Shown here: in pieces, positions 8,549-35,011 of the stretch
How the letters are laid out: each line of letters starts with the position of its first letter
Numbering within the stretch: position 1 is the first letter of the stretch
DNA from: Physcia stellaris
Lineage: Eukaryota; Ascomycota; Lecanoromycetes; Caliciales; Physciaceae
Assembly (NCBI GenBank): GCA_018902385.1
Contig: JABSSW010000021.1
Span: 620,001-684,000 of the forward strand
Direction: 5' to 3'
DNA length: 64,000 nucleotides
The notes under the pieces: model-generated
What the model saw: the letters and a program-made list of their open reading frames with translations, nothing else
What the model was told of the DNA's origin: nothing
The model's database searches: none
Program-made: the position numbers and the translations under genes

Positions 8549-9441
8549 AGATGCGACTTCCAATGGGAACGTTTTCCGTTCGCTTGATGTATTATTCTCC
8601 GGACTAAGTTGTGTATGCATTGGGCTCGTGTCCAGTACTATCATATGGAAAGCCCGTATAGTTTAAACGTCAAAGTTGCATTACATGCATCTGTTCATCA
8701 GACTCTGTTGCTCTTAGTTTTGGGGGGTATTTAGCTGTGTGGCCTTGACAGATACTTTGGCTTTTGCGGGTCTCCTCCCTCCAAACCTTGTAGCTGAGAA
8801 ACAGATATGTGCCACGCGACACTCTCGAGGACAACAACGAGCCGAAGCCTCAAGTGGGTTTAACTGAACATGACCATTACACCGAAGGCTGTCCCAACTC
8901 GTGATAATGTGAATGAAGGCTTAGAAGCTGATAGTGGTGATCAGGCATAATGCCTAGTGCGTTGGGCATAATTGCATGTCTAGCAATCATAGGACTCACA
9001 GCTATTTCTGATCGGCCCGACAGCCAAAGTATCCAAGAGGATCGCGATCGCAGCAGAACGGCCGACTCGGTCTTGCCACGGTGCTAAATTTGCAGTAGCC
9101 AAGCCGAAGCCCCGATTCGGAAAAGCATCAACGCACACCATATGGGGAACCGAACGCGAGTGGGATGCACGCCATAAGCGCTAGCTTGTATGCATGTAGA
9201 ACGGCTTCGGAAGATAAACGGAATGAACTTGGAATTGCTGAACGTGGAACAGCTGCAAGCTAAGAGAAGACGAGCAGGGCAGGTCTGAGCGAAATAGAAG
9301 AAAGTAGCTCCGGACACAGCGAAGGTCAAATTATTCGGTACCTCAGGCACACCCCAGGAGCTTCGACAACCCTGGCTGTACCCTGAGAATAGCACAAATC
9401 CTTGTGTCTGGTTAATCGAGGCAACCTGGACTGAACATGCC
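8549..9441. other. Intergenic, PKS promoter region
   Basis: This 893-bp stretch lies between the enoyl reductase stop and the synthase ATG. It should hold the synthase promoter. No coding frame, repeat or clear TATA box is seen. Confidence 0.5.
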
Positions 9442-12400
9442 ATGGCTCGAAAGACCTCACTCAAAGAACCGATTGCCATCGTCGGCAGTGCGTGTCGCTT
9501 TGCTGGCGACGCGAATTCCCATTCGAAGCTATGGGATCTATTGCAAAACCCTCGTAATGTTCAGAGAGAGATACCAGAGAATCGATTCAGTATCAAAGGC
9601 TTCTACCATCCCAATCATGCTCATCACGGTCACTTCAACGTGAAGCACTCCTACATGCTTAACGATGACCCGACTGTTTTCGATGCTGAGTTCTTTGGCA
9701 TCAACCCCATTGAAGCGCGCGCCATGGATCCTCAGCAGCGACTGCTCCTCGAAGTAGTTTATGAGGCTATCGAATCTGGAGGCATGACCATTGAGGGTTT
9801 GCAAGGTAGCGACACTGCTGTATACGCCGGTGTGATGACTGGTGATTATGAGGCCATGCTGCTCCGCGATTTGGACGTTGTTCCGACTTATGCTGCAGTT
9901 GGAACCTCAAGGGCAGTTCTGTCTAACCGAATATCGTATTTCTTCAACTGGCACGGCGCCTCGGTGACCTTGGACACCGCATGCTCTTCGAGCCTGGTTG
10001 CTGTTCATTCAGCCATGCAGACGCTCCGTGAAGGGGACTCGCGCGTAGCGGTGGCCTGTGGTGCCAATCTTATCTTGGGGCCTGAGTCGTATATAATTGA
10101 GAGTAAGGTTAAGATGTTGTCGCCAGATGGCCTCGGTCGGATGTGGGATAAGGATGCTAATGGCTATGCGCGTGGGGAGGGTGTTGCGGCCATTGTGCTC
10201 AAGCCACTCAGCGCTGCACTGGAGGATAACGATGACATTCAATGTCTGATTCGGGAGACAGGCCTAAATCAAGACGGCACCACTGCAGGCCTTACGATGC
10301 CCAGTCCCACCGCACAAAGGGCCTTGATCCAAAGCACGTACGCTAAAGCAGGTCTTGACATTTCTAATCAGGTAGACCGTCCTCAGTTTTGTGAGGCTCA
10401 TGGCACTGGAACCCCAGCTGGTGGTGAGTCCTTCTCATGGAGTCCGATGCTGTCCAGATGTTGGTTATTGATTACACTTGGCAGATCCCGTAGAAGCAGA
10501 AGCGATCAGTACAGCATTCTTTGGTGGAGAGCAAGGCTCGGATCAAGCAGCTGGTGGCCATCCCTTGTACGTCGGCTCCATTAAGACTGTGCTTGGGCAC
10601 ACCGAAGGCACCGCTGGTATTGCAGCTATTCTCAAGGCGATGCTTGCGATAGAGAATTCCCGTATTCCTCCAAATCTACTATTCAACGAACTCAGTCCAT
10701 CCGTAGCACCATTCTATAAAAATCTCGAGATCTTACGTGCCGCAAGACCTTGGCCAATCGTACCGAAGAACCAGCCCAGACGAGCCAGTGTCAACAGCTT
10801 CGGGTTTGGTGGTGCAAACGCCCATGCCATCCTTGAAAGCTACGAGGCGTCGGTGTTAAACAGTGTTAGCGATTTGCCCGCCCTATTCACCCCATTTGTA
10901 TTCTCTGCTGCATCCGAGCAATCGCTCCGCGCCAATCTTGCAGCATATGCTACCTATCTGGACTCTCATCCTGACATCGCTTCGTGCGACTTGGCCTATA
11001 CACTGCGGCAACGTAGATCCGTCTTCCCGTACCGTATATCATTTCCTGCCTCAGACGTCAGTGGACTCAAGTGTAACATCCTTGCCAGATTGAAGAACCA
11101 AGACTCGAGCTTGGGCGTGAGAGCACCGGAAAGGAGCGGAGGGTCGTCTAAGATCCTTGGTGTTTTCACTGGCCAAGGAGCGCAATATGCCAGCATGGGC
11201 GCTGAGTTGATTCGTAGATCTGCCCTAGCCCGTCAAATAATACAAGAATTGGAATCAGCCCTTGCCCAACTTCCCAAAGAGGATCGTCCGACATGGTCAC
11301 TCGAGGCCGAGATTTTTGCGGGCCCTTCCACCTCCCGCATGAATGACAGCGCCATCTCCCAACCACTTAACACCGCTATCCAGATCATGTTGGTTGATAT
11401 ACTTCGTTTAGCCAATGTACACTTCGATGCCGTTATTGGTCATTCAGGCGGCGAGATTGCTACTGCCTATGCTGCCGGCTTTCTCACCGCTCGGGATGCT
11501 CTGTGCGTTGCCTACTATCGAGGCGTGAGTTGCGCACTCGCGGCCAGTCCGAACAAGGACCTGCAAGGTGCTATGCTTGCAGTAGGAACGTCCATGGAGG
11601 ATGCCCTACAGATTTGCGAGGACGAGGACTTCGCTGATCGTATTGCACTTGCAGCTGTCAATTCCTCCTCGAATGTAACCATTTCCGGAGATATATATGC
11701 TATCGAGGAGCTTGCAGCCTTTATGGAGCTAGAAAAGACCTTCCATCGCCGTCTCAAAGTAGATAAAGCCTATCATTCGAAGCACATGCAGCCTGCCGCT
11801 TCCTCTTATCTGGCAGGAATGCGGCGTGCGGGCGTCAAGGTCCAGGAACCTTCTTTGTCTCGGCCATGCACCTGGTACTCCAGTGTTTTCGAGGGCAAGC
11901 CTGTGGACTCCTCCTTCGCACTAGGCGACAAGTACTGGGTAGAAAATATGATTAGACCGGTACTATTTTCGCAAGCGCTTACCGCTGCTCTGTCCTCAGG
12001 TACTAGATTCGATGCAATACTCGAAGTTGGGCCCCACCCCGCCCTCAAGAGTCCAGCAACCCAAACCATCCAAGACGTCCTGCAAAAGACCATTCCCTAC
12101 GAGGGAACGCTAACACGTAACATTGACGCTGTCGAGGCGTTGTCCAACAGCCTGGGATTCTTGTGGTCAAACTTAGACAAGACAAGAGTGGACTTGGGAG
12201 CCTGCGAGGCTGCCACGTCTGGAGGGAAGCAGCGATTCCACGTCCTTAAAGGTTTACCAAGCTATCAGTGGAATCATGAGACAAAGTATTGGCACGAATC
12301 CCGAAGGTCTCGCCAGATGCGCCTACGACAGCAGCCAGTACATCCGCTACTGGGTGATGCAACCGCAGAGAGCGGGCCTCATACACTGCGTTGGAAAAAC

Positions 12401-15400
12401 ATCTTGAAGCCAAGCGAGATTCCATGGGTTGAGGGCCACTCGGTTCAGAATCAGATTGTGTTCCCAGCTGCGGGTTATGTGTCTACCGCTGTTGAAGCAG
12501 CGCAAGTCCTTGCTACCGGCAAAAGAGTCCGCCTTATTGAGCTTGATGAGTTCTACATCCATCAAGCCATGACATTTGATGGCAACGATGCTGGCGTCGA
12601 AGTATTGATAGAACTATCACAAATTAGCAAGCTGCAGCCAACTTACATAGAGGCTAAATTCACCTATTCCGCTGCTCTTGGAAACGAGAGTACAGACCTC
12701 TCTCTTGCAGCTGACGGGAGGGTGAGGATCTGCTTGGGAGAACCCTCGTCCATGCTGCTCCCTGTACGCCAACCAGCGCCACCACATATGATTCCTGTCG
12801 AGGAGAGTCGTCTGTATAACTACCTTGCAAGCTTGGAGTACAACTTCAGCGGCCACTTCCGCTCCCTAGTAGATCTCAAGCGAAAGCTCGGAAGCGCGAG
12901 ATGTAAGGCTAAAAGAGCATCGACGCCAGATTGCGAATCGGTATTGATTCACCCTGCTGACTTGGATACGGCGTTCCAATCCATCAACCTCGCTTACAGT
13001 TACCCAGGCGATGAGCAGCTCCGTAATCTCCATCTGCCTACAAGCATTGCTAAGGTCAGGGTGAATCCCGCGCTTTTCGCTGCACAGAGTACCCAGGAAC
13101 AATACTTTGACCTTGATTCCGTGTGCAATCCCGAAGACCGCTCTACACCCGGATCCGGGTTTTCAGGAAATGTCAATCTGTATGTCAATGGTTGCTCGAA
13201 CGCTGCTATCCAGCTTGACCAAGTTAAATTCAAGCCTGTGGGAATGACAGCCGATGACGACCGCAAAATCTTTTGCCAAATGGATTGGGTGCCCAGCATG
13301 TTGGATGGCACAGCTGCCGCAGACCATATATTCGTGGGCCAATATGAGCGTGATTTAATGTGGGTACTCAACAGAATTGTCAACTATTATGTCAGGCAAT
13401 TTGACCGCGGTGTCTCCGAAGAATCCCCATCCAGGAAGGAAAGTCCGACCAGCCACTACCTCAAATATATTCGACACATGAAAGGTCTCCTTGAGCGTGG
13501 CGAGAACCGCTTTGCCAAGCAGGAATGGCTGAATGATAGTCTGGAAGATGTTATGGATCATATTCGCAGCATAGGGTATTTTTCATAGCATCATGCCATT
13601 TTGGAATTTTGCCACTTGCTGATCCGTAATGTCTGTTCTAGGGTCGAAGGTAACGCAGATGTGAGGATAATGCTACTCGTTGGCGAGATCATGCCCAAAG
13701 TTTTCAAGGGGGAAGCAAGCATGCTGGAATATTTCCGTACATCGGGACTTCTGGACGAGTACTATGCCACTGGGTTCGGATTTCAGCAGTCCGGGATGTG
13801 GCTCAGTGCTATGGTTAAACAGTACGTACTTTTCAGAGCGATTCCTCTCCTCTTTCACAATTTGTCTCAAAAGAAGGCTTTCTCAGCTTTCGGGACAAGA
13901 TTTCAATGGAAAACGCTAATTCCGAGTTCTCCTAGGCTCACTGATCGTCATCCACACCTCAGGCTCTTAGAAATCGGTAGGTCAGCCTCGCCTTTGTAGT
14001 GGAAAGTAGGTCTGACAGTACACGCTAGGTGCTGGCACCGGTGGTGCCACCAAATACATCCTGGATGCGATTGGTCGAAGCTTTGATGACTACACTTTCA
14101 CGGATATTTCATCCAGTTTCTTCGAAAAAGCTACGGAGCATTTCGCGCCATGGAAGGATCGCATGATCTTCAAAACCTGCGACGCTGAGCGCGACCCAAC
14201 GGAGCAGGGTTACGTCGAGGGTAGTTATGATATTATCGTTGCATGCCAAGTGTTGCATGCTACGGCGAAGCTAGACACGACGATACGAAATCTTCGCAGG
14301 CTGCTCAAGCCTGGTGGCTTCCTCCTTATCGGCGAAGGGAGCAGCGAGGGCATGCTTCAGTATAGTGCTGGTTTCATTTTTGGCACGCTTCCCGGCTGGT
14401 GGCTTGGAGTAGACGAAGGCAGAATCCTTTCGCCTCTTGCTAGCGTTTCTCAGTGGGACGCAATATTGAAACGTAATGGCTTCTCAGGAGTGGATACGAA
14501 GCATCCACCAAAACTCTTCGACACCTTTGGTCTTACCCTCCTGTGTTCACAAGCTGTGGACAAAAGGATAGAGCTCATCCGCAAGCCACTCTCCGCCCCA
14601 GCGAATTTAGCGATTAATGAAGCCATTATTGTTGGAGGCCAGACGAAACCTGTTGCCGATCTCGTCCAAAAGCTTGAGCACATACTCGCAAAGCTTGAAT
14701 GTGAGGTATTCTCGTACACAGCCCTGGAGGAACTTGACGACAGAGTTTCAAACGACGGGGCTGCCATCATCAGTCTTGCTGATTTGGACAAGCCTGCATT
14801 TCAAGACATTACTCCAGACAGGTGGTACGGTTTTAGGAAGCTATTCGTGGGTGAGAAGTCAGTTCTATGGCTGACCAGAGGCCGGCTTGAGGACGAGCCA
14901 TACTGCAATATGGCGGTTGGGTTCAGTGGTTCTGCAGCACACGAGGAAGACGATCTTCGCCTCCAATTTCTAGACGTCCCGGATGTGAGCGCGATTGATG
15001 CGCAGACTATTGCAGAATTTTTCGTCCGCCTCACGAACAAGCAGCTCGAAGGTGATGACATCCTCTATACCCTTGAGCCAGAAATTGTTATTGACACCAA
15101 AGGACGCGAGCTGGTGCCCCGACTGGGCTACATGCCGGCGGCCAATGATCGTCTTAATTCCACCCGGCGTATCATATATCATGAGGTCGATATGGGCAAA
15201 TCTGTTGTGGAATTGCAACAGCAAAGCAACGAATGCTTTATTCGCCAGCTGTCCAGATTCGAGACGCTGGAGGAGTTCACAGGGTATGTATGAACCGTTG
15301 ACAGATTCTTCCAGCAGGTGTCCCTAACAACAACCTTCCAATCGTCGGTACTCACCATTGATCTGTGCAGCATTCATGCATTGTCGAATAGAAACTCCTG

Positions 15401-18400
15401 GCTAACCAGTGTAATTGTTTCTAGGCCGAAGACGCTCGAGATGCACACGACCCATGCTATCCTATCCGCAGTCAAGACGCCGCTTGGCCACCGTTTTCTT
15501 GCCTTAGGTGTCGACTACAGCGGACGCCGATACGTCACTCTTGCTTCTTCTTTAACGTCCATTCTCAGGATTCCAATCGAGACCGCGGTGCCCTGTGATC
15601 TCCGAACAGTTTCTGATGATACAGTACTTATTCTTGTTGCTGCTCAGCTTGTCGCAATGGCCATCATTGATCCCATGTATACCGGACAAAAAGTACTTCT
15701 ACACAATGCTTCACATATAGTCGCTCAGGCAGTCTCAGCTCGGGCCTCTGTTAAGGAAGTGGAAGTAACGTATACAACGGACAATCAAGATAGCGCCTCC
15801 ATTCCGGCCGGATGGATCCAGCTAAGTCCATACCTAGGACGATATGAACTTAGCCGAAGGATACCTGCCAGTGTTATGTGCTTTGTCGGCTTTTCCATGC
15901 ACGATTCGGAAAGTGAACTAGCAATAGCCTCAATTCTCTCACAACATTGCCACAAGGAGAATTGTAAGACACTGTACGCTCACAAATCAACCGATAGCGG
16001 CAACACTTCCGCTATCACCTTGGGTCACATTCTCAAGAGAGCTGTAAAGGACCTCCGGATCGAGGAGTGCGAGCCTGTTCCCAAACCGGTCAGTCTTGAA
16101 ACGCTCATTAGCAAAGACCATTCCGATGATCCATTGACAGTCATTGACTGGACCACTGCGACTACGCTCCCAGCTCGTGTTAGGAGATTCGACACCGCGT
16201 CACTTTTTAGGACAGACCGGACCTACTGGCTGTGCGGTCTCTCGGGGGCTTTAGGCATATCACTCTGCGACTGGATGATTGATCGAGGAGTCAGGAATCT
16301 GATTCTCACCAGCAGGAACCCTAAAGTCGATCAAGCTTGGATCAAGAACCATGAGCGAAACAGGGTCATCGTCAAGACTCTTTCATGGTGTGTATCCCAC
16401 AGAGTAACACTGCTGTTACTACTATGCTGATCAGGATGATTCTCCAGTGACGTGACCGACGAGAAGGCTTTGCGGCTTGTCCACAAGACCATTATCGAAA
16501 CTTTCCCGCCCATCGCCGGCGTTCTCAACGGCGCCATGGTGCTTAGAGACGTCACGGTCCGCAATATGCAATTCGGACAGTTGGAGGAAGTCTACAAACC
16601 CAAGGTGATCGGAAGTATGAACCTCGACCGCATATTCCACGACATTGATCTTGACTTCTTTATTTTACTATCTTCCGCCAACTGCATTATCGGTAATGTT
16701 GGTCAAGCCAATTATGCGGCGGCAAACATGGGCATGGTCGGTGTCGCAGCCAATCGCCGAAAGCGTGGTTTTCGCTCCAGCACAGCCAATGTTGGCGCAA
16801 TTATCGGTGTGGGCTACATCACCGAGTCTGCCAGCCGGCTTGATCTGGCCGTGGCAAACTCGCATCTGATTCACCTGAACGAAGACGACTTTCACCAGAT
16901 TTTCGCCGAAGCTCTGGAAGCTGGCTATCTGGACTCGCTTGCGGGTCCTGAGATAACGACCGGTATTCCGGAAATCTCACCGGATGAGCCCAACATGCCG
17001 AAGTGGTTTTCGGAACCCAAGTTTGCGCGATTGGTTCGCCATTTTGCAGTCAGTGGTGATGATAAGAAGGATCGGATGAATAATTCCACTATTCGGGAGA
17101 GCCTGCAGGCATGCAGATTGGAGCAGGATGTTTATAAAGTGGTGAAGGAGGCCTTCGCTGCTCAACTGCGCAAGACCTTGCAAATATCCAGTACGGATGA
17201 TGACATTATGAACAAGGGTAGCAGCGACCTCGGTCTCGACTCCTTGATCTCCGTCGATATCCGATCTTGGTTCTTAAAAAGCTTTCAAGTCAGTATTCCG
17301 GTGCTGAAAATCATGTCAGGTAAGGGTCATACGTCGGGCCTGATCGAAGCTGCCGTGGAGGGCATTCCCTCAGAGCTAATCCCGCATGTTCGTAGAGAAG
17401 GAGGTGCAATTGTCACCAACGGAGAGGTCACCATCGCATCCAGCTGCCCTAGCACCCAAGCGAGTCCACTCAGCGGTGAATGGCAAACGCCTACGATCAC
17501 ACCAGCTTCCCCAGAAGGTGAGGGTCCCATCGACTGGGATGCTGAAGTGTGCCCGCCCGAAGGCATCGTAGAAATCCCAAACGCTACACGTCCCAACTCA
17601 AAGCCTCGTGTAGTCGTGCTCACTGGTGCTAGTGGGCTACTGGGCCACCACCTCCTCAACGCCCTTCTAGCACAGCCCTCTATAAGGAAGGTCATCTGCA
17701 TCGCAGTCCGCCGACTGGCGGAGCGACTCGAATCGGGCCAACTCCCGCCTGCAGATGACCGAGTCGTGTACTACTCTGGAGACCTCGCTGAATATCGTTT
17801 TGGCTTAAGCGAAGAAGACCAATGCGAGATCTTCAGTGAAGTTGACGCCGTCATACATAATGGCGCTGATACATCGCATCTCAAGTATTACTCAGCCTTA
17901 CGAGAAGCGAACGTCGGTTCCACTAAACAATTGGTTCGTCTTTGCATGCAACGCATGATTCCAATGCACTACGTCTCCTCGGCAGGCATGGCCTTGTTCG
18001 CCGGCAAGGATCCCTTCCCCTCCATCTCGGGCACAAAGACAGGCAAGAAGCCCTCACCTGACGGCGCACACGGTTATATGTGCAGTAAATGGGTGTGCGA
18101 GAGCCTCCTCGAGCGGGTTAATCAGAAGTACGGTCTGAGAGTATGGATCCAACGGCCTTCGACCATCGTCCGCGAGGGCGATGACGCCACCACAGCAGCG
18201 GCAGATTTGGACTGGGTCAATACTCTTATTCACTACTCACATACCATCCAAGCCGTGCCAAAGATCGAGTATAACCGCGGTACATTTGATCTGGTCTATG
18301 TGCAGACCTGCTGCGACGACATTGTTGGCGAACTACTGCGCAATGAGCCTAAGCTTCCTAGTGGCATGACATACATCAATAATGTTGGCGACGTTGTGAT

Positions 18401-18590
18401 TTCAACGGCGGATATGGCAGAAATTAGCAGACATAAGGGCATGAAGGAGCCATATCCGGTGTTATCGTGGAAAGAATGGATGCAGAAGGCTCTGGCGGCT
18501 GGTTTGCACCCAGCCGTCGCTGCGCTCGTGGAGACCTTTGATGAACCTGGAGCTCCTTCGTATCCGCGACTTTTTAGAGGGAGTGCTTGA
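9442..18590 (+). CDS. Highly reducing PKS with C-terminal reductase (KS-AT-DH-MT-ER0-KR-ACP-R)
   Basis: An iterative type I polyketide synthase. I read seven exons: 9442-10423, 10485-13575, 13642-13821, 13936-13976, 14029-15283, 15425-16387 and 16448-18590, giving ~2884 aa; all phases agree. KS has DTACSSSL (Cys181), HGTGT (His320) and GHTEGT (His366). AT has GHSGG (Ser648). DH has VEGHSVQ (His979) and HPADLDTAF (Asp1155). The C-methyltransferase has [11 protein letters not shown] (~1430). A structural KR and a degenerate ER follow, then KR with GLSGALG and Tyr2260, and ACP with GLDSL (Ser2436). The reductase domain has TGASGLLG (~2563) and YMCSK (Tyr2714, Lys2718). All domains except ER keep their catalytic residues. 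The domain order matches the PKS half of PKS-NRPS hybrids, but no C, A or T domain is present; the reductase should release an aldehyde or alcohol. This resembles betaenone-type synthases that use a trans-ER. The 15284-15424 intron has an alternative acceptor at 15370. Confidence 0.93.
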
Positions 18591-19134: not shown

Positions 19135-20898
19135 TCAAGCAACAGCGAATCTACTCCTCGATCTCAGCGTCGCTCCCGTGAAGTACAGCGTGAACATCCC
19201 AATCACGCCAAGGAAACTCAGCCCTCCGAGAAGACTCACTCCCTTCCCGACACCGAGATTGAGGAAGAGCGGTCTCCCAAAGAGAATACTACCACAGGCG
19301 AACGAAGACCTGAAGAAGTCGTTGCTGGCGAACAGCGACGCCGCGTATTGGGGGTAGCTGAGCGGGACGTAGACGAATATGCACTGCATAACGACGAATA
19401 CCGAAGCGCCATAGAGCGTGATGCCAATAACCGAAGCAATCCAATGGATATCCGGATTCGACGTCCAGGCGAAAATGAAAAGACCGATAGGTGGCCCAAA
19501 AGAGGCGAATAAAGCAGGGACAAGGCGATGCTCCTGCGCGCGAAGCCCATTCTTCATGATATCTGGCACGATGTAGAAGTACAAGTATGCGACGTAGACG
19601 GCCACCCCGATTAGGCACGCAACGAGTACGCAGAGGAAAACCACGCCGATCATACCGAGCGAGAAGCCGTACATGACAGGGTAGACGAGCGGAAAGACTT
19701 CGAAGAAGGAGTAGTAGATCCCGTAAATGAGGGAGCTGTAGAGGTTTACGAAGGCGATGGCCGGGTCTTTGATGGTAATTTCGATGGGCTTGATCAGGGC
19801 GTCGATGATCACGGCGCTAGGTTTGAGGCCTTGTTGGTCGATTTCGCTTTGGGCTTGTAGACGCTGGTCGCCGGTCAGTTTGCGGAGGCGGTTTGCGCGG
19901 CGAAGAAGGATGTTCGGGGTTGAAGTCTCGGGCATGAAGAGGAACATGAGGATGAATATCGGTGCCGAGAGCCAGAGTATCTCCCAGAGTGACCAGCGCC
20001 AACCTTTCGCGGTGACGGCGAAACCAGATAGGAGTGGACCGAGAGCAGGGCCGCAAAACGCACTAGAGACCCAAAGCGTCATAGCGTAGGGGAGCTTGAG
20101 GAGAGAGTACATATCTCCCATCGTAGCGCCGGCATTCGCGAGACAAGGTGAGCCGAAAAAGCCTTGCAGAAAGCGCAGGACGAGAAGGCCAGCGAAGTTG
20201 TTGACCAGCGCAGTGGGCAACGACAGGACGACGAAGATGAAGAAGGTAGCAATATAAACTGGATTGCGACCGATTACGGGAATCTCGCTCATGGGCGCAA
20301 ATGCGAGAGGCCCAATACCGTATGCAAGTACGTAGAGGGAGAGCGGGAGAGCAGCATCGGTAGGAGAGACACCGAATTTGTGTATGACCCCCTCCTCTGA
20401 GGAAGTGTAGATAGCAGACCCTGTGTAGACGGCGAATGTGTAGAGGCAGATCAGGCCAGCGATGAAGAAGCGTTTGAGATCCGACCAGTTCTGAGGATTC
20501 GCTGGATCGTCGGTTGTATACCAGTCGACCAGTATATCTCCATCTGCGGTCTTGCTAGGAACAATGGGGATTGTTTTTGTTCGCTCGAGGGCCAATTCCT
20601 GATCGATTTCCAGGCGTTCCTCTGTGAAGTTCTGGGTCTCTCCGCGACTCCTGGTCCTTGTTAGCTTGGCTTCAAGATCGTCGTGACTGCTTTGCGTAGG
20701 TATCCGCTCTATCTCGGCGGGGCTGTTGGAGTTTGTGAGGGAGTCGGTGTGGTATGTAGGCTTTTCGTTGTTCATAGCACTGATGTAGGTAGTCGGAAGC
20801 TCGAATCCCGGCTTCTCTTCTGGATATTGGAAGTATTTGTTACGAGTAGCCCATCTGATGATTTGCCCAATGGGCGCATCTCTGATGGTGTCCGCCAT
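19135..20898 (-). CDS. MFS drug:H+ antiporter-like exporter
   Basis: A major facilitator of the DHA1 type (fluconazole/polyamine-resistance branch), predicted to export small molecules across the plasma membrane by proton antiport. It is an intronless frame of 587 aa from ATG 20898. The ~130-residue hydrophilic N-terminus ends in VDWYTTDDPANPQNWS, the usual signature before helix 1 of this family. About twelve hydrophobic helices follow, with the motif RFLQGFFGSPCLANAGATMG around helix 5 and the acidic stretch FLFMPETSTPNILLRRA before the central loop. It lies just downstream of the polyketide synthase, convergent with it, so export of the product or self-protection is a reasonable inference. 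General xenobiotic efflux is the alternative. Confidence 0.88.
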   Translation of the reverse strand: MADTIRDAPIGQIIRWATRNKYFQYPEEKPGFELPTTYISAMNNEKPTYHTDSLTNSNSPAEIERIPTQSSHDDLEAKLTRTRSRGETQNFTEERLEIDQELALERTKTIPIVPSKTADGDILVDWYTTDDPANPQNWSDLKRFFIAGLICLYTFAVYTGSAIYTSSEEGVIHKFGVSPTDAALPLSLYVLAYGIGPLAFAPMSEIPVIGRNPVYIATFFIFVVLSLPTALVNNFAGLLVLRFLQGFFGSPCLANAGATMGDMYSLLKLPYAMTLWVSSAFCGPALGPLLSGFAVTAKGWRWSLWEILWLSAPIFILMFLFMPETSTPNILLRRANRLRKLTGDQRLQAQSEIDQQGLKPSAVIIDALIKPIEITIKDPAIAFVNLYSSLIYGIYYSFFEVFPLVYPVMYGFSLGMIGVVFLCVLVACLIGVAVYVAYLYFYIVPDIMKNGLRAQEHRLVPALFASFGPPIGLFIFAWTSNPDIHWIASVIGITLYGASVFVVMQCIFVYVPLSYPQYAASLFASNDFFRSSFACGSILFGRPLFLNLGVGKGVSLLGGLSFLGVIGMFTLYFTGATLRSRSRFAVA

Positions 20899-21789
20899 CG
20901 GCCTGGTAAGCGAGTGATGAGACTGTGAAGCAGATTAAGGGAGGGAAAATTCAAGAGCAATATCAGAGTCTACTATCTCGGTGAGCCGCAAGAGGAACGC
21001 TGCAGAGGGTAGGGGATATTTAGAAGAGGAGACGGAAAGATGGGAGGAGATCAGGACGTAAGTAGGGAAGAGCTATCTTATACTGGAGCCTCGATCATTG
21101 ATTAATATTCAATCCTACAGCATTCAGCTTGAACTGGTAATACCCCTGCTTGGTATGTGAGTCAGCGATATGCTTATAGATCGTCACGCCATGAATGTGT
21201 ATCTCTTCGTTCGTCGTTTAGCCGTACCTCCCCTCGCTTACTGCTCAAACGAGGATGGTATTGGTAGTATCCATGGCAGCTACTGGGATTTGGGCCTGGA
21301 GGATGCATTAGGATTTCAGTAATCGGCACGATAAAAGACCGTCAGTGAGTCAAAGAGTAAGAAGGGCTGGCGTCGGACGACTAAATTATGTCCGTCGGAC
21401 GAACACTCGTGAAGCGGATGAATTCTTTTGTCAGCAGGTCTTGGCAGACTGCACAGTAATCCAAAATTGAGGGAAAGCTCAGGCCCTGATTGGATACGTA
21501 GAAACTACCATATTTAGCTCTAGCGTCTTGGCACGTTTCTCATTCTAGCGCTTAGATTCAGGGTCCAACCTTACAGCACTCGGACTTTGGAAGGACACGA
21601 ACTCCATATCGCCGCCAGACAATTTCAACATCCAATTCACCGAATCCTCTTACAGCTCCAAAGATCGGAAGAACAGCCGAGTCCCTTTCTCCCTTGATCG
21701 CGATCCAACCTCCTAGACATCGACCTCCTCCAAGAACGAACCATCATCTCCCTTCCATACTCCTAACGCACTCCCACTCACCACCCACC
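20899..21789. other. Divergent intergenic, MFS / SEC72
   Basis: This 891-bp stretch between two divergently transcribed genes should contain both promoters. No gene, repeat or clear TATA element is recognised. It is the likely right border of the polyketide locus because housekeeping genes begin next. Confidence 0.5.
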
Positions 21790-25099: not shown

Positions 25100-26215
25100 T
25101 CAGGTCCCAGCCGCAACCTTCCCCTGCTCCTCATCCGCTGGTTTAGTGTCCGCGTGACTCGCAACCTCCTCCTGAGGGACATCATCAAAGACCTCTTCCT
25201 CGGGCATTATCCTTAACTCGGTCGCATCCTTCTCATCTGCCGCCTTTCTCGAATAGTCACCCGCCGCACGAGCTCCGTTGGGAACCCAAAAGCGTTGATC
25301 TACCCTCACAACCACGTACAAGAGGATCACGATGATCTCGACCGTGAAGTTGAAAAGGTAAAAGCAGGCTTTGCTGTGGTACCATGCTGGATTGGTAGCA
25401 GGACGTGGTGTCAAGTAATTCGTCCCTGCACGGAAAGCGGCGCCGAGGCAAAGTAATGTGGTGGATGTAAGTAAGATGGCGATCTTGGTCCTGAAGCGAC
25501 CGGACCCGAATTTCTCGACTCTGGTTTTGCGTGGGATGATTAGTCCGCCAATGACAAGTGGGATGGGAAGGAAGCCAATGACGGTGAACACTGTCTGCCC
25601 GTAGAGCAAAATGTCACGATCGATTCTCCTGGTGTTTGAGTTGAGGGTGTAGAAGCTCTGGACGACGCTCGTGATGAGCATGATCAAGCTGACCACGATA
25701 AGAGCATAGATGCCGTAGAAGAACGCAGCGAAAGCGGGATGCCAACCAGAATTAGGGTGCGCGGCTCGGATGATTCTTTGGGCAAAGATGAGATTGATGA
25801 TGAATAAAAGTACCACGCCCGCAGCGACAAAGACCTGGGCAGCGATGGCAAGCCGGATGTTGTGTTGGCGAGTGGCCCAGACAATGCGCAGGATGCAGCT
25901 CATTATCCTAGCCATGCAGAAACCAAATAGCATGCCGCTCATTAGGAACTTGTGACCCCGCTTCATGTTTGTTTTAAAGAGGAACATGTGCGATATGGCT
26001 CCGAGGATGAAGAGGAGGAGAAAGACGGTACAGATGGGGACGTCGAGATCGACTGTTGGCAGACCGCCCAGACCGGCGGTATTGACAGGATAAGGAGGAC
26101 TGAGAGGCATAGCAGGTCCGCCGGCAGGGGCCTGGAGTGGATGTTAGCATTGTCGGTAGAGAGGTGAGCAAAGAGGTGAGTGTCTTACCTGCCGTGTTAG
26201 AAGGTTGGCTGCCAT
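25100..26215 (-). CDS. Seven-helix integral membrane protein (DUF3112-like)
   Basis: A fungal polytopic membrane protein of unknown function, sometimes annotated as GPCR-like. A 27-bp first exon (26189-26215, MAANLLTRQ) is joined over a 57-bp intron with GTAAGA and CTCCAG ends to 25100-26131, giving 352 aa. About seven hydrophobic helices can be counted, beginning with VPICTVFLLLFILGAISHMF. Helix 2 is followed by CMARIMSCILRIVWATR, a pattern I associate with the DUF3112 family. Further marks are the TLNSNTRRIDRDILLYGQ loop and a helix with FNFTVEIIVILLYVVVRVD. The C-terminus is acidic and cytosolic-looking. No signalling partner is visible nearby, so the receptor idea is only a possibility. 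Confidence 0.82.
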
Positions 26216-26962: not shown

Positions 26963-28444
26963 TCAACAGCCAAACATCTTCGTCGTACTGACATTAATCC
27001 GACTCCATTTCCTCCGCTGCAAAATACACCACAAGAACTGGCCCGGCCAATACACGTGATAGAGCCACCACCACGGCAATGGGTCCCAGATCTCAAATGT
27101 TCCATCTTTCCAGAATATCACATGCTGCACAAATGTCATGCAGCCCTGCAGGTACATCCCCAATGCCATCTTCCCTTGAAGCAGCTGCAGCGTTGGGTAT
27201 AGTACCAAGGCACCGAGATCGTGTCCAACCCAGTAGTATTTCGGAGGCTTCCCCGGTGTTACAATCCCTTCTTCCGAGTCCTTCGAGACGCCATTGGTTT
27301 GAGGCTTGAGGGCGTGCATGTATGCCTCCGCGATTTCCAGCTCGCGTCCATGGAAGAGAACGAGCGCCGTATGGGCTCGCGGGTTGCATTCGATGGGCTG
27401 TAGCACCAATTGAACCCCTTTTTCCGTGACTACTTCATCCACCAAGAAGTCGAACGATAGATGTCCCGTAAAGCCCTCTCCGCTTTTCGCCGCAAATATT
27501 TGAGTGAAATGTAGCATCGCCCTACTAAGTGTCGACTCAGGGGATAGCAAATCGTAATGCATGAGTAGTTCTGACGAAGGGCAGGCGAGAAAGGCGTAGA
27601 CCTTGCCGTTGATGACGAGTGAATGTGTACAGTACTCCTTGCCCCGGACGTACTGCTGCAATACCCATGGCTTTGTAGGCGAGATAGGCACCTCGGCGAT
27701 ATGGGAATACGTTTCGCTCATCGTGCGCCGTGGCAGGAGCGTCATGTCGGCCCTGTAGGCATCGTCGACGCCCACGCTCTTGAGGATGTACTTCTTCTTC
27801 GTGACATTGAGGACTTTGTGGACGGCATCTCGTGAGGTGACATTATGTGTCTCCGGGATCGGGAGCCCCAGCTTCGCAGTGTGCTCTATAAAGGTATTCT
27901 TCTCGTGCAGAGTCGACGTCGTATCCACATCAAATTGGATAGCGCGACAGGAGGACTGCTGCTCGATGACCTCCTTCGCATAGCCATCCTCCACCGCGGA
28001 TGCCACACCGGAGCAGCTGACCCACAGATCTATCTTCTCTTTCTGGATGATCTCAAGCAGATCCTGCGCGTAGTCGCTGGAGCCGTTCGGTCCGTGCACA
28101 TAGGATAGACTGTAGAACTTCGATATTGCTTTCGAGAATCGTCCACTCGCAAGGATATCATGTGGCTCGAAATCGGCTCCGATGACATTATGGCCCGCTC
28201 GATAGAATGTCCGCGCCAGCGTCAAGCCTTTGGTCATGCCAACCCCGGTAACGAGAATGGTTTTGGGGCGGAACCCTCGAGACCGCCGTATGCGCCGGCG
28301 GGCGGTGTTGGGAGATTGGAGCCATTGTAGAATGTAGGCAATACCTAGGATGAAGGTGTCGAGAGGGAGGAAGAGAAGGCTGAGGGTTATGAGGGCGGCG
28401 TTCTGAGCAAAGTGGAGGCGCCAGGATGAATGTCCGTCAAGCAT
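26963..28444 (-). CDS. ATP-grasp ligase, MysC-like
   Basis: Predicted to be the ATP-grasp ligase that activates 4-deoxygadusol and couples it to an amino acid or amino alcohol to give a mycosporine. It is an intronless frame of 493 aa; I choose ATG 28444 (MLDGHSSW) because the frame above it has no ATG. A hydrophobic helix lies at residues ~15-42 (ITLSLLFLPLDTFILGIAYI), suggesting membrane attachment. A nucleotide-binding-like ILVTGVGMTKGLTLARTFYR and the pre-ATP-grasp region follow. Then come ILKSVGVDDAYRAD (ATP-binding lysine region) and the metal-site stretch LQPIECNPRAHT, with the Glu and Asn expected of ATP-grasp folds. The C-terminus again has aromatic, possibly membrane-associated segments. 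Function rests mainly on clustering with the cyclase and O-methyltransferase; without those neighbours only 'ATP-grasp protein' would be justified. Confidence 0.83.
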   Translation of the reverse strand: MLDGHSSWRLHFAQNAALITLSLLFLPLDTFILGIAYILQWLQSPNTARRRIRRSRGFRPKTILVTGVGMTKGLTLARTFYRAGHNVIGADFEPHDILASGRFSKAISKFYSLSYVHGPNGSSDYAQDLLEIIQKEKIDLWVSCSGVASAVEDGYAKEVIEQQSSCRAIQFDVDTTSTLHEKNTFIEHTAKLGLPIPETHNVTSRDAVHKVLNVTKKKYILKSVGVDDAYRADMTLLPRRTMSETYSHIAEVPISPTKPWVLQQYVRGKEYCTHSLVINGKVYAFLACPSSELLMHYDLLSPESTLSRAMLHFTQIFAAKSGEGFTGHLSFDFLVDEVVTEKGVQLVLQPIECNPRAHTALVLFHGRELEIAEAYMHALKPQTNGVSKDSEEGIVTPGKPPKYYWVGHDLGALVLYPTLQLLQGKMALGMYLQGCMTFVQHVIFWKDGTFEIWDPLPWWWLYHVYWPGQFLWCILQRRKWSRINVSTTKMFGC

Positions 28445-28957
28445 TTTGAGAGGCAGAAGATGGCAGGGATGCGCCAAGCCACAGCAAAAGCCTCACGAAA
28501 TCTTTGAAATTTCTGAAATATTCGCACTGCAACTCAGGAAATTTGAGGATCAGAGAACCTGAAATAGAGGGAAGAATGTTCCCATCAGGGAGTGACGAGT
28601 GTTGAGCAGGCAGATGAATGAAAGCTGAGTGTTCTCCTTCGCTACTAAACTTGTAATCGATGTCGACGTCACTTCTCCTCTCTGTTAATTGTAGTACATA
28701 TGGGAAAGTGTCATCACACATAAGGACTCCAGCCTCATTCAACTGCCTAGGACACCGCCAATGTAAGAGGCACAGCAGATGCGACATGAGAGTGTCGAAG
28801 TGTATTATTGGCTGGACGACTTCCACTGTGAAGGGTGAGAACGTATAAGGCATTACTATTTACTAGCCTACTGCAAGATACAGTCGAACGTTGTCAACGG
28901 AGACGCTGATAGCTGAAAGCGTGTGCTCGATATTATTGTCTTTCACGTCTCGGTCTT
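28445..28957. other. Intergenic, ATP-grasp promoter region
   Basis: This 513-bp stretch lies upstream of the ATP-grasp gene and downstream of the ferroportin gene, both on the minus strand. No coding feature is supported. Confidence 0.5.
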
Positions 28958-30600
28958 CTACCCACCCACTCTCACTTCCCCGGCCCCCGTGTCGTTCCCC
29001 CAACTCCGATGGTTTCCCTTATCATATTTGATGCAATCTGATAGATGCGTCAAATGTCCCCTTCTCCGTCTCACAAAACTGGCATACAGCCCACTGGCGA
29101 CGAGGATCGCAACCGTGCTTACCAGCACTGGATATCGGAATTGATCAGGACGAGCCCAGACAATCGTAGTAGCATAAGCGAACAGTTCGAAGAGATTCTG
29201 CAGCGAAGCCTCTGTAGATGAGAAGCTCCCTCTCGCTTCAGCCTCAACCTCCTCCTGCACCACTATCTGTACACTCAGGTCAAAACCCCACAACCCGACC
29301 CTACTGAGAATGACGCCGGCAACTAACCACGCAGCGGCGACCTGCTCCTTTTTGGATGTCCAGAATATGCTTGTTGCGGTGATGATGATAGAGGCCTGCC
29401 AGCCGATCGACCATAGTCCTGAGCGGATAGGACCAATGCGACTGATGGCGAGCGGGGTGAACCACGTGGCTGAGATCTCGAGGATAGAGGATATTGTGCG
29501 AAGGAATCCTAGCTGGAGGGAGGTGACGCCGGTGGAAAGGAGGTAGGTCAGCATCTGGGCGGAGAAGGAAAGAACGGTGAGGTAGAGAAGGGAGAGGGAT
29601 AGCGAGGGGAGGAAGGCGGAATGGTAGATGTAAGATGAAGTTGATGAGGCGAAGGTGTGCAGTGCCGAGGATAAGTGGGTTGGTGAGGGCTGATGAGCAT
29701 TCGAAGATATATTTGTGGAGTGTATCCGAGGCAACTGAAGAGCGGGAATGGCTTCATGGACCTGAATGGGGGGTCAGAGGGAGTAAGTATCGAATGTAAC
29801 CATAGAGAGAAGAGACTGACCCACGCAATGGTGAAGTATTCAGCGAGCACAGATGCGCTACTTAATCCCATCGTGGTCCAAATAGCAGCCTTGATCGAGA
29901 ATCCATCCACCAATGCAATCATCAACGGGCCTACCAATTTGCAGAAGAGATCGATCCTACGCATTTGAGAGTTCAAGACAGTGAGCTCACAGCCTGTGCT
30001 CTCCGAAATGACGACCACCCAATCTCGCTCCACGGCAACGAGATTCATGACAGCACAGATCTTTTCCGCACAAGCGAACACACACACCACGCCAAAGAGA
30101 ACAGGCTTAAACCATGCGAGACGAATATTATTGGTAGACATAACCCAGAACAGAAGACATGATGCTATCACTGCGACCCGCTGTACTACGATAGAGATTC
30201 GAACGGCTTTCAACCGCTCTGCTCTATCAATGTAGCTCCCAACTGAAGGGGAGAAGCATATTGCAGAAGCCGCCCTTACAATAGCATAGACTGATGAAGG
30301 CAGTAGTGTTTTAGGAAAGATGTGGGCGAGGAAAAGGACGGCGCCGAATTCGAAGAGTCGAGAATTCCAGGTTGAGAGGAAATGAGATGTGTAGAGCAAG
30401 CGTTTGACTTTGACAGCGGACAGGAACAGTCTATCTTGGATGTTTTGAGTATCTTCCTCGGCTGGGTCTGCAAGGAATGGTTCATATTCCTCTAATGGAA
30501 CATCGTTTGTTGTAGAAGCCATCTGAATGTTAGATTCTGGATCAATTGATGGATTTGGTCTTTTAGGGTTAACTTGAATGTCGTCCTTATTTTGTTGCAT
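28958..30600 (-). CDS. Ferroportin-family (SLC40) metal exporter
   Basis: A member of the ferroportin family, whose animal and plant members export ferrous iron and some other divalent metals. Two exons (29821-30600, 28958-29761) with a 59-bp phase-0 intron give 527 aa from ATG 30600. The stretch LLYTSHFLSTWNSRLFEFGA at the start of helix 1 is a strong family signature. It is followed by SPSVGSYIDRAERLKAVRIS and a helix pair up to LFWVMSTNN. After the splice junction (WVHEAIPALQL) come five or more further helices, with a GFLRTISSILEISATWF stretch. The tail is hydrophilic. It lies between the ATP-grasp and the cyclase gene, all on one strand with gaps of 313 and 513 bp. Membrane location is inferred; whether it is plasma membrane or vacuole cannot be read. 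Confidence 0.88.
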
Positions 30601-30912
30601 GCTACAACCCTAGCTTTGCGGTTCCATTGAGAGATTCGATTTTCTCCGAGTCATTGAATGGCACCTAAAGTACATGGTTGTGGTATGCAGTATGCTCAGA
30701 GTAGTATATTCATTATCTCTCAGCATCTCTAGAGCTGAAGGAAAAGCATCACGACAGCCGTCCAACATTCGAGCCACCGGCAGAGTATTCTGTAAGAGAG
30801 ACAAAACTTTTCTCACAACGACCATTCATCCTCTACTGCTTCGTTCAAACGCTTTCCTCCCTTCAAATTTCCACCTGCTCCTAACCACCCTCGCGAAGGT
30901 TTAGAGGCCAAT
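30601..30912. other. Intergenic, ferroportin promoter region
   Basis: This 312-bp stretch separates the cyclase stop from the ferroportin start, both on the minus strand. No feature is recognised. Confidence 0.5.
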
Positions 30913-32610
30913 TCAGGCCCTAGCGCCGTTGGTGTATCCATTGACGCCATTGGTAAGGCCCTCGGAATGTCCATTAGCCATGCTCTCCTCGATTCCATTC
31001 GTACCATTCGTGCCATTGACGCCATCCACAAGGTTAGCATGGCCATTGATGCCGTCGTCGTTGTCCACCTGAAGGCTTCCTCCATGTACGTGGCCGTTAC
31101 CATTGAGAATGCCAGCCTTTTCCGCGGCAACTTCAACTGCTTCGGTCTCGGCACTGTTGTTCTCCGTGTAGCCGGTGTCGCTGGCGTCGACGTAGGCTTC
31201 GAGGCCCTCGCCGTTGCGGGGGTACTCTTTCATTAGCTCCTTGTGGCGGCGGAGGGCTTCATTGAGTTCGGCGGCTTCGACATCATTGAGGAAGGTACAT
31301 TTGCCGATGGGGCTGGGAACTGCGGCCCGGAGCTTTCCATCACGAGTTTTGAGAATGGCCGCCGTGGCTTTGTCGAGAATGTCTTCGTCGAACTGGGGAT
31401 GGTCCATCGAAAGACCGGCCCTGGAAAAGAGTGATAGGATACGTCGATGCTCTTCGTCACCGATCAATTTGCGGTTGTTGGCAAGGGTAGCCGAATAGGC
31501 CATGTCGATAGAGATAGCATGACCGTGACGTAGTGGCGTCTCAGGTATAAGCTCATGCATCGGTGACCACCTAGACACGTAAGATTCAGTCCTACACCTT
31601 TTTGGTATCTTTACTCACGTGTGGCCGTATGCGATAACTCTGTCCAAACCAATTTCATGAAGATTTGGCGTCTCCAGTTTCAACATCTCATATATACCCT
31701 CATAGTTGATCTTGTCCGCTGCATCATGGACCTCTTGAGAAGCACCATCGGTACGGCCAAAGCCGGTTTCAATGATTTCCTCACAGTATTTGTCCAGAAG
31801 CTCAAAGGTCGGTAGGTGGGAACAAGTAGATATCTTGATCAGCTCGGCAAAGCCATTCCGAATCTGTGCCGTGGGAAGGGTGCGAAGGAAAGTAAAATCG
31901 AGGAAGGTGTGAATAGGTGCGTGGTACGCTCCAAGACGGTTTTTGTAGTTGCCATAGTTGACGGCAACCTTGATCGACACCGAGGCGTCAATCAAGCCAA
32001 TGACAGTGGTCGGGACTCGAATGAAGTTGGTGTTCCTGCGGTATGCGGCACAGGCGAATCTGCAGGGACCATCCGTGTTAGTAGCTGCATATCGAGGGTG
32101 ATAACCATTAGGAGATTGATGGGAGAGTGCCTTGATATAATCTCTGGCAAGAGCGAGCTTTTACCCAGCAACATCAGTCACAAGGCCTCCTCCAACGACC
32201 AATACCGGTTCCTGTAAACGTCAGTGAATATGGCTGCTTGTAAACAGAAACATGTTCGAAACGAAAAGCGTGGCGAGTACCTTGCGATAAATCCCAAATT
32301 CGGTCATTGAGTCGACAATGCTCAAGAAGGTTGGAATAGTCTTTGCCTTCTCCCCAATCTTGGTCTTGTGGACCTTGAGCTCAAGCCCATGGTGCTGGAA
32401 GTACTTCTCAATCTGCTTGCCATACACATTGTAGACGTTCAAGTCTGTCACAGCAAGAACACGGCCCCAACGTTTGTAGCATTCGGCAAGCTGACGATTC
32501 TCAGGATTGAACACGCCATCAAGGAAGGTAAAGTCATATGAGATCTTCTCGTAACCATCGACATGGAAGCCGTTTTTGGTTGGAATAACGGTTGCCGTAA
32601 GGTCTGACAT
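30913..32610 (-). CDS. Sugar-phosphate cyclase, desmethyl-4-deoxygadusol synthase type
   Basis: A member of the 3-dehydroquinate-synthase-like cyclases. Next to an O-methyltransferase and an ATP-grasp ligase, the best reading is desmethyl-4-deoxygadusol synthase, which cyclises sedoheptulose 7-phosphate as the first mycosporine step. Four exons (32281-32610, 32165-32211, 31619-32059, 30913-31570) give 491 aa with consistent phases. Marks include [20 protein letters not shown] (NAD site), [34 protein letters not shown] and [17 protein letters not shown], which contain the expected metal-binding Glu and His. The last ~70 residues are a low-complexity tail rich in Asn-Gly (NGxxNG) not needed for the fold. 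2-epi-5-epi-valiolone synthase is the main alternative; the neighbourhood argues against it. A TATAA element occurs near 32660 upstream. Confidence 0.88.
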
Positions 32611-34035
32611 ACTGAATTGATTTGAAGGCTTTCGAAGGTCTGAGTGGGTTTGTTGTGGCTGTTATAAATGCTGGGAAAAGACTTGACTACGTAGCAGACT
32701 CTTGGAGTTTGAGAAATTTTAGACCAAAGCCGTGAACTTTAAACCAGCATGGATGTTGTCATACATTGCTCTAAGCTAATGAGATCTCTCAGCTAGTCTG
32801 TGCAAACTAGAGAACGTCGACCAAGCAATGAATTGCTCGCTTGAGAGAGCTCAAACTGCAGGCTTGATAGGTATCGGGTAGAACCTTCTGCGCAACTTGC
32901 CGACCTCTCACAAGCAATAAGGCCCATTGTTCTTGGTCAAGAAGACTCAATTCGAGGAAGCGACATTTAGTTACATGCCGTCTGATGCAGGGTGCATGGT
33001 TGAGCGAGTAGTTCTTTGAATTGTAATGATGTATAGTAATGTCTCTTTCAGGCAGAGCTTGAATTGTTCGAGTCGGGAATTAGCCCGCATCGGGATGGAC
33101 GATGCCAACTGGCCATGGGGACTTCCCAGTCGCCTGGGCCTCGTCCTAGGACATGTATGAGATCATGAAGGGCTGTCAAACGGTTAGTACGCACCCCACA
33201 GATTCTATGCCCCTGGTGCCAGATCTCTCGGGTAGATTGAGTTTGGCTCGTCCCTGCGCAAAAATTTTCTCAGTCGATCATGTCATGCTTGTGCCCCGCA
33301 GGCGGACGTCCTTCCTCTGACAAATTTGTTCCCTGCATCATGGTCAAACCCGAAAAAGCATTGACTGCCAGCTGTCAATGCTACCTTGCAGCGAACCATA
33401 CCCGATGCTTCGGATTGCGTGACAGCATGCAGTACGAAAGCGATCATTGGAAGTGTGCATGCTGAGCAGCCGTTACGCAGGCATGAAGCGATCATCCCAG
33501 CAAATACGCTAATTTGTTCGCGCGAGTCCCCTTAAGCCTTTCCAGGTAAAGTGAGGGGTTCGTGACGTGCGTTCTTGCAGTGGGAAACGGTCCCCCACAC
33601 CAAGTAGTATAAGCGAGATCGGAGACGTGCTTTTTTTGCTGTTGGCAGAGGTCAAACTCATGACGAAACATATCGTCGGCCAAGCTTTTCACATGCGGTG
33701 ATTTGAGCCTTCCGGTGGGATTGGATGGGATTTCTGTGGGTCTAAGGGCTACGGTGCGCTTCGGCGAGCATGCGGAAGAAGTCTCTGCAGCGATAGGTTA
33801 GCAAACGCCATTGGACCAATCCAGGGAAAGTTCAAAATGTCTTGATTGTCGTCTCTATGTGTTGGTGGGCTTATGACGCTAAGCTGGAGGTTTGTGTTTC
33901 CCTCGAGGTATGACGACTTAGTGTTGCCGAGGTCGTCACAGCGTAGGTAGGCGACTCTCAATGGTGATTGTCACTCTTGTCCGCAATCCGGACACGATCT
34001 CCGGACAGACATCTTTCTCGACTTGACAGCTCATC
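32611..34035. other. Divergent intergenic, cyclase / O-methyltransferase
   Basis: This 1.4-kb stretch separates the divergently transcribed cyclase and O-methyltransferase genes. It should act as a shared control region. A TTTATAAC element (minus strand, near 32660) lies about 50 bp before the cyclase ATG. Short frames at 33280-33960 look random. Confidence 0.5.
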
Positions 34036-35011
34036 ATGGGCCAGCAGAACTTCAACGAGGAGCGAGCGTACGTACCAAAGGAGGCGGACGGCCAAGCATT
34101 TGTAAGATATAGAAGTTGTTGGTTGACGTGTACGAGCTGACAAGATCGTGGAGTTCGACGACGGCCGCGAGGTTGACCTTCTCCATTTCGTATACGGGCA
34201 CCCTTCGATAGAGGAAATTCGAAACTCGCCCAGCCGAGTTCTCCAAGCCATCGATGAGTATGGTCGCCGGAAGAAGTACTTGATGAATGTTGGGGAGAAT
34301 AAGGGTAGGATTGTCACGAACTTGATTGCGGAGGTCAAACCCGAAACCATGGTGGAACTCGGAGGCTACATTGGCTATTCGGCGCTCCTGTTCGGCGATG
34401 CTGTGCGAAAAGCTGGAGGACAAAGATACTTCAGCTTTGAAAGAAACCCTGAATTTGCAGCTGTGATAATGTCGCTGGTTGACCTGGCCGGACTGGGCGA
34501 TTTTGTCAAGGTCGTTGTAGGCCCCAGTGCTGAAGGCATCAAGAGACTCCACAAAGCCGGTAGCCTCAGGCACATAGATCTTATGTTTTTGGATCATTAT
34601 AAACCTGCTTATACAACGGACCTCAAGCTGTGTGAGCACTTGCAACTGATCACCCCAGGGTCAGTGCTCGCAGCGGACAACGTGATCAGCCCAGGCAATC
34701 CACCTTACTTGGAATACGTCCGTAGTGATGTGTCGACGAAGAAAGAAAAGTACGAGAGAGGAGAGGTGAATGGCGATGATGCTGCCAAATTCCCGGACAG
34801 GTCTCGGAATCAATACCAGAAAAGAGAAGGAGAGGAAAAGCTAAGTACGGAAGTGAAAGGCAACCCAAACCTGATCTACGAAAGCAATTTGGTCAACAGC
34901 TTTGAGCCGACAGGGGAACCAGTAAGTGATCTTGAACCACGGACAAGAAGCTCTGCTGATTCAATCAAGGATGGTGTTGAGATTACACGCTGCGTGGGAG
35001 AGTCGACCTAG
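34036..35011 (+). CDS. Class I SAM-dependent O-methyltransferase, MysB-like
   Basis: Predicted to methylate desmethyl-4-deoxygadusol to 4-deoxygadusol with SAM. The fold is that of catechol O-methyltransferase. Exon 1 (34036-34101, MGQQNFNEER) joins 34145-35011 across a very short 43-bp intron. Marks are VELGGYIGYSALLFGDAV (SAM motif I), YFSFERNPEFAAVIMSLV, DLMFLDHYKPAYTTDL (metal-site Asp region) and VLAADNVISPGNPPYL. Near the 3' end a 48-bp segment (34921-34968) has GTAAGT, a CTGAT branch-like site and ATCAAG, has no stop and keeps frame. Removing it places FEPTGEP directly before DGVEITRCVG, as in relatives, so it is probably an intron. The product would then be ~294 aa. A further insertion of about 35 charged residues follows KKEKYERGE. 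Confidence 0.85.

Follow-up and report, generated by a model that had tools for sequence, protein, structure and literature searches.

A predicted mycosporine gene cluster in the lichen mycobiont Physcia stellaris, with an O-methyltransferase on the catechol O-methyltransferase branch

Which pathway do three neighboring genes of the lichen mycobiont Physcia stellaris encode, and are its enzymes those of the bacterial route to mycosporines? The genes lie in a stretch of 64,000 nucleotides of assembly GCA_018902385.1 (contig JABSSW010000021.1, C21 in our numbering, C21:620001-684000; hereafter the window), and encode a cyclase assigned as desmethyl-4-deoxygadusol synthase (DDGS), an O-methyltransferase (OMT), and an ATP-grasp ligase (ATPG). 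They are adjacent at positions 26963–35011 of the window, a span of 8.05 kb with one additional gene inside; the order from left to right is ATPG (minus strand), a ferroportin-family transporter (minus), DDGS (minus), and OMT (plus). A sequence-only reading of the window had placed a cyclase, an O-methyltransferase, and an ATP-grasp ligase together within 8 kb and proposed a mycosporine locus. The grouping was borne out, and we conclude with high confidence that the locus is a fungal mycosporine cluster of a known type. The proposal gains support from Phaffia rhodozyma, where the three functions were reported to be demonstrated genetically: when the corresponding three genes were deleted or expressed in another host, 4-deoxygadusol and mycosporine-glutaminol were lost or gained, and the three genes sufficed for formation of mycosporine-glutaminol in yeast (PMC10057719).

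The DDGS gene (30913–32610, minus strand; exons 32610–32281, 32211–32165, 32059–31619, and 31570–30913) encodes 491 amino acids, and its spliced product was 100% identical over all 491 residues to a deposited P. stellaris protein (P0001). Among solved structures, the cyanobacterial DDGS 5tpr scored 495 bits (E 1.7e-147), the 2-epi-5-epi-valiolone synthase (EEVS) ValA 227 bits, and the best 3-dehydroquinate synthase (DHQS) 107 bits, with aligned identities of 56% (388 positions) to 5tpr, 35% to ValA, and 28% to two DHQS. Placement of the cyclase against the DHQS, EEVS, and DDGS clades, which the sequence-only reading had named as a possible refutation of its proposal, did not refute it. A maximum-likelihood tree built from 33 rows put the window cyclase among fungal DDGS with support of 100/100 and split the 20 DDGS rows together from ValA at 100/99, with the DHQS rows outside. 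The tree included 10 of 52 bacterial loci and ValA, on a long branch, as the sole EEVS, and long-branch warnings were returned for AROM, 3okf, and ValA. Four bacterial cyclase rows of unassigned type (L087, L088, L089, and L092) were placed between DHQS and the EEVS-DDGS group. The bacterial group nearest to fungal DDGS was cyanobacterial, at a join supported by just 93/82; several rows of the tree have long branches.

The residues tell the same story. Positions D281 and H360 of ValA (literature numbering; D287 and H366 in the chain, an offset of 6) are those we take to separate EEVS from DDGS; the window cyclase has A269 and T348 at these positions, the same letters as 5tpr, and at 69 columns all five DDGS in the comparison share a residue that ValA does not have. 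The peptide MLKLETPNLHEIGLDRVIAYGHTWSPMHEL matches the Phaffia DDGS-recognition peptide at 24 of 30 residues, counted by eye. By these comparisons the window cyclase is a member of the DDGS clade, and conversion of sedoheptulose 7-phosphate is predicted. An EEVS or DHQS in its place would point the locus to a C7-cyclitol or shikimate product; such an enzyme belongs to the same superfamily, and the Pfam model matched is DHQ_synthase. This identity is contradicted by the structure scores, the tree, the identities, and A269/T348, as well as by a score of 186 bits to the NCBIfam aroB model (cut-off 305), and was rejected as extremely unlikely. Searches of the genome (43.97 Mb in 147 contigs) detected two DHQ-synthase-family matches, this gene and a long-frame one on contig C23, taken to be AROM; the primary dehydroquinate role therefore seems to be filled elsewhere.

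A search with the DDGS profile found 52 bacterial loci, in all of which DDGS was followed on the same strand by OMT-related (E ≤ 8.6e-6) and ATPG-related (E ≤ 2.3e-36) frames. These cyanobacterial and actinobacterial mysA-mysB-mysC operons are like the Physcia locus in their three-step logic, their DDGS being 53–57% and their ATP-grasp proteins, where compared, 27–33% identical to those of Physcia. They differ in that all 52 have the order DDGS-OMT-ATPG on a single strand, and one locus (L004) carries a D-Ala-ligase-like (MysD-like) fourth gene after the operon. DDGS-OMT-ATPG operons were present in many Rhodococcus, Williamsia, Mycobacterium, and Mycolicibacterium genomes (L005–L006, L013–L014, L017–L031, and L033–L054), and genes of the mycosporine-like amino acid (MAA) type are therefore common in these actinobacteria.

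The fungal and bacterial sets also differ in the methyltransferase. The OMT gene (34036–35011, plus strand; exons 34036–34101 and 34145–35011) encodes 310 amino acids; its first exon is less certain, the donor chosen being one of two in-phase donors, picked by eye. The closest solved relatives of OMT are catechol O-methyltransferases (COMTs), with 145 bits to Schizosaccharomyces pombe COMT1 and up to 130 bits to animal COMT, and bacterial-type OMTs scored about 50 bits or less. A bacterial MysB showed the opposite pattern, with bacterial O-methyltransferases on top (118 bits) and COMT chains at 64 bits or less, except for 2avd (78.5 bits); this chain, deposited under the name catechol-O-methyltransferase, is presumably a COMTD1-type protein, and it was absent from the tree and from the OMT match list. 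A tree with 34 rows joined the fungal OMTs, that of the window among them, to the COMTs at 100/100 and grouped MysB with caffeoyl-CoA O-methyltransferase (CCoAOMT)-like bacterial enzymes of PF01596. This tree held MysB from 10 of the 52 loci and two COMT segments, with long-branch warnings for L074, 5zy5, and 3tr6. A forced clade of fungal OMTs and MysB, examined without the long row L074, was 84 log units worse and was rejected (approximately unbiased test, p-AU 7.8e-5). OMT was 41% identical to the COMT segments 5zy5 and 6aw4 (183–185 positions), 20–25% identical to MysB (10 of the 52 loci), and 18–25% identical to MysB and other bacterial OMTs taken together; LDH(W/Y)K and ADN, two stretches of the COMT type, are retained. 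On this evidence the window OMT is on the COMT branch of PF01596, MysB being on the CCoAOMT-like branch. The sequence-only reading had described an enzyme set as in cyanobacteria and some fungi; this holds for the three-gene set, but the methyltransferase is not of the cyanobacterial type.

The block recurs in other fungi. Records were first paired by contigs of equal size, and gene order was then read from deposited locus tags entered by hand for 43 of 120 DDGS, 82 of 120 OMT, and 98 of 120 ATPG rows, the 120 rows being the best of 3219, 1727, and 1564 matches, respectively. All 9 readable DDGS-ATPG pairs had consecutive tags, all 11 OMT-ATPG pairs had tags two apart, and the OMT and DDGS tags directly followed one another in 18 of 22 contigs. 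The blocks of other lichen fungi, such as Circinaria calcarea, Lecanora helva, Lambiella insularis, and Gyalolechia fulgens, are like that of Physcia in gene content, with the tag order OMT-DDGS-ATPG.

Because OMT adjoins DDGS in this large majority of tagged contigs, and because it is the sole close COMT relative found in the genome (the next match to exon 2 as query having 25% identity and E 2.9e-4), the window OMT is very probably the mycosporine OMT. The kinship that separates it from MysB, with COMT1 of S. pombe as a best solved relative and 41% identity to two COMT segments, would also suit a conventional COMT that works outside the pathway, desmethyl-4-deoxygadusol being methylated by another enzyme. 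We find this very unlikely, given that no second close COMT relative was found, the recurrent position next to DDGS, and the report that Phaffia needs the OMT of its cluster to make mycosporines (PMC10057719). The fungal pathway thus appears rather likely to be a chimera, in which the cyclase and ligase are kin of MysA and MysC, MysB is absent, and its step falls to a COMT-type enzyme; in the fungal lineage this enzyme would either have replaced a non-orthologous one or have been recruited independently. A literature search covering few subscription journals found no mention of a COMT-type OMT in a mycosporine pathway.

ATPG is encoded by a single exon (26963–28444, minus strand; 493 amino acids) and has a hydrophobic helix at the N-terminus. 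A phmmer search against PDB sequences returned one match, which was meaningless, and with just 13 sequences as input the fold was predicted poorly (mean pLDDT 52.3). With 66 sequences the prediction was good, revealing an ATP-grasp fold; across 66 sequences, the ATP-grasp positions K222, N354, P355, and R356 were invariant and E352 was nearly so. Together with its sequence kinship to MysC, this identifies ATPG as a MysC relative.

The Physcia locus and the Phaffia MYC cluster are alike in having the three enzyme types, with no fourth ligase within the cluster, and in the size of ATPG (493 and 500 amino acids). In both, DDGS is divergent from OMT across a long shared upstream region, which measures 1568 bp in Phaffia and 1425 bp in Physcia (32611–34035); a regulatory role may be supposed for it, and a bidirectional promoter probably serves both genes. 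The clusters differ in order, being DDGS-OMT-ATPG with OMT and ATPG co-oriented in Phaffia, and OMT-DDGS-(ferroportin)-ATPG with DDGS and ATPG co-oriented in Physcia. They also differ in the number of introns in DDGS, OMT, and ATPG (3, 1, and 0 in Physcia; 13, 6, and 5 in Phaffia), and in the ferroportin-family gene interposed in Physcia.

In the pathway that we propose, DDGS would cyclize sedoheptulose 7-phosphate to desmethyl-4-deoxygadusol, and the COMT-type OMT would methylate this compound to 4-deoxygadusol. At the expense of ATP, the ATP-grasp ligase would then link 4-deoxygadusol with a single amino compound, with the glutamine or glutaminol type as the best guess by analogy with Phaffia. 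The product would be an oxo-mycosporine absorbing near 310 nm, with a presumed role in UV screening.

The number of ligases bears on the nature of this product. The sequence-only reading had seen no fourth enzyme and favored a mono-substituted mycosporine. As far as the searches went, the first statement is right for the cluster contig: the genome gave 8 Dala_Dala_lig_C and 44 nonribosomal peptide synthetase (NRPS) Condensation matches, none of them on C21; for AMP-binding, 14 of 113 candidates were scored. It does not extend to the genome as a whole, where the 44 condensation matches lie elsewhere and contig C14 carries a D-Ala-D-Ala-ligase-like gene (L060, near 300531–301079; E 2.5e-14), the one of the 8 that we examined, the other seven being weaker and on other contigs. 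The C14 protein is 25% identical over 156 amino acids to the MysD-like protein of L004, and it or an NRPS could in principle act as a second ligase to form a disubstituted imine MAA. We consider such a product very unlikely: the C14 gene is unlinked to a cluster that contains no second ligase, and fungal clusters are without this step and fungi make aminocyclohexenones only, according to PMC10057719. Because the cluster contig has no D-Ala-ligase or condensation match, and by analogy with Phaffia, a mono-substituted mycosporine is the likely product, as had been proposed; its side chain is not readable from sequence, and any glycosylation is presumptive.

Several observations weigh against assigning the locus to mycosporine formation. 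ATPG is just 27–33% identical to the bacterial MysC proteins compared; its amino substrate is not readable from its sequence, and coupling to 4-deoxygadusol is predicted by analogy. The Phaffia OMT is likened to that of the window by its role in the cluster, not by sequence, so that the proven enzyme may or may not be of the COMT type. The pairing of OMT and DDGS is not universal, since 4 of the 22 pairs are non-consecutive (two apart in Haloplaca sp. 1 and Zalaria, 14 apart in Cladonia borealis, and with non-serial tags in Aplosporella). Finally, the Physcia locus is known here from its genes, not from chemistry or transcripts, and a literature search on Physcia and lichens, judged by titles, did not find a mycosporine from P. 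stellaris.

Origin of the genes from an algal or cyanobacterial contaminant was rejected. The published Physcia assembly (46.57 Mb in 184 scaffolds) is described as made from DNA of an axenic ascospore culture (PMC7513301), and we therefore regard the genes as fungal, not algal. The cyclase gene has introns and lies inside the fungal DDGS clade, and the green-algal MAA gene neighborhood is reported to have an EEVS-type cyclase (PMC7826186), which also counts against algal contamination.

What is the gene between DDGS and ATPG doing in the block? It encodes a ferroportin-family (SLC40/FPN1) transporter of 527 amino acids (28958–30600, minus strand; exons 30600–29821 and 29761–28958), and is unusual at this locus, since the DDGS and ATPG tags are consecutive in all readable pairs; in this the lichen fungi named above differ from Physcia, nothing being annotated between the two genes. 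It might be a dedicated transporter of mycosporine or an intermediate, recruited in the Physcia lineage to form a four-gene cluster. The gene lies inside the block, co-oriented with its neighbors, and in the alignment to 6vyh, read by eye, residues that we take to be metal ligands of the vertebrate ferroportins are exchanged (S stands for D39, E for H43, and A for both C326 and the C-lobe histidine); the comparison is with vertebrates, and the changes may be usual in fungi. Recruitment is nevertheless very unlikely: this is the only FPN1 gene detected in the genome, nothing is annotated between DDGS and ATPG in the nine other species with readable tags, and the literature naming both mycosporine and ferroportin concerns only skin, as judged by titles. 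Our literature search, with its coverage of few subscription journals, found no link between ferroportin and mycosporine. FpnA is reported to be conserved widely among fungi, also in the Lecanoromycetes, and the Aspergillus fumigatus protein to be a vacuolar nickel/cobalt/gallium transporter serving resistance to these metals (PMC11890741). An insertion is more likely than a pathway gene, and because it is the only FPN1 gene of the genome and FpnA is widely conserved in fungi, it is probably the genome's FpnA, relocated into the block.

On the 3' side of ATPG lies an open reading frame for a DUF3112 membrane protein (25100–26143, minus strand), the only DUF3112 gene detected in the genome and a putative pathway member at most. 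Its product is 67–68% identical to the C-terminal part of two models that start with ATPG, P0313 (Polycauliona) and P0319 (Blastenia), both from lichen fungi. As these models look like gene-caller fusions of neighbors, they suggest that the DUF3112 neighbor of ATPG is conserved.

Elsewhere in the window, frames of a highly reducing polyketide synthase (KS, AT, DH, MT, and KR) end in an NAD_binding_4 reductase domain (9298–18590, plus strand), with an ADH-type gene from 7346, a FAD oxidoreductase (4906–6316), and an MFS transporter (19135–20934) nearby; these polyketide genes are a separate cluster about 6–8 kb from ATPG. In a frame of 986 amino acids (945–3905, minus strand), the stretch GKAGSGKST resembles an ATP-binding site, and there are acidic repeats of the DDEGP type.

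The assignment would give the fungal partner of a common lichen a sunscreen pathway, and would extend a pathway role to copies in its relatives whose deposited names are 'hypothetical protein', '3-dehydroquinate synthase', or 'catechol O-methyltransferase'. If the COMT reading is true, formation of 4-deoxygadusol by methylation was solved twice, with two types of methyltransferase; MysB queries would miss fungal mycosporine genes. A COMT annotation next to a DDGS gene may also mislead.

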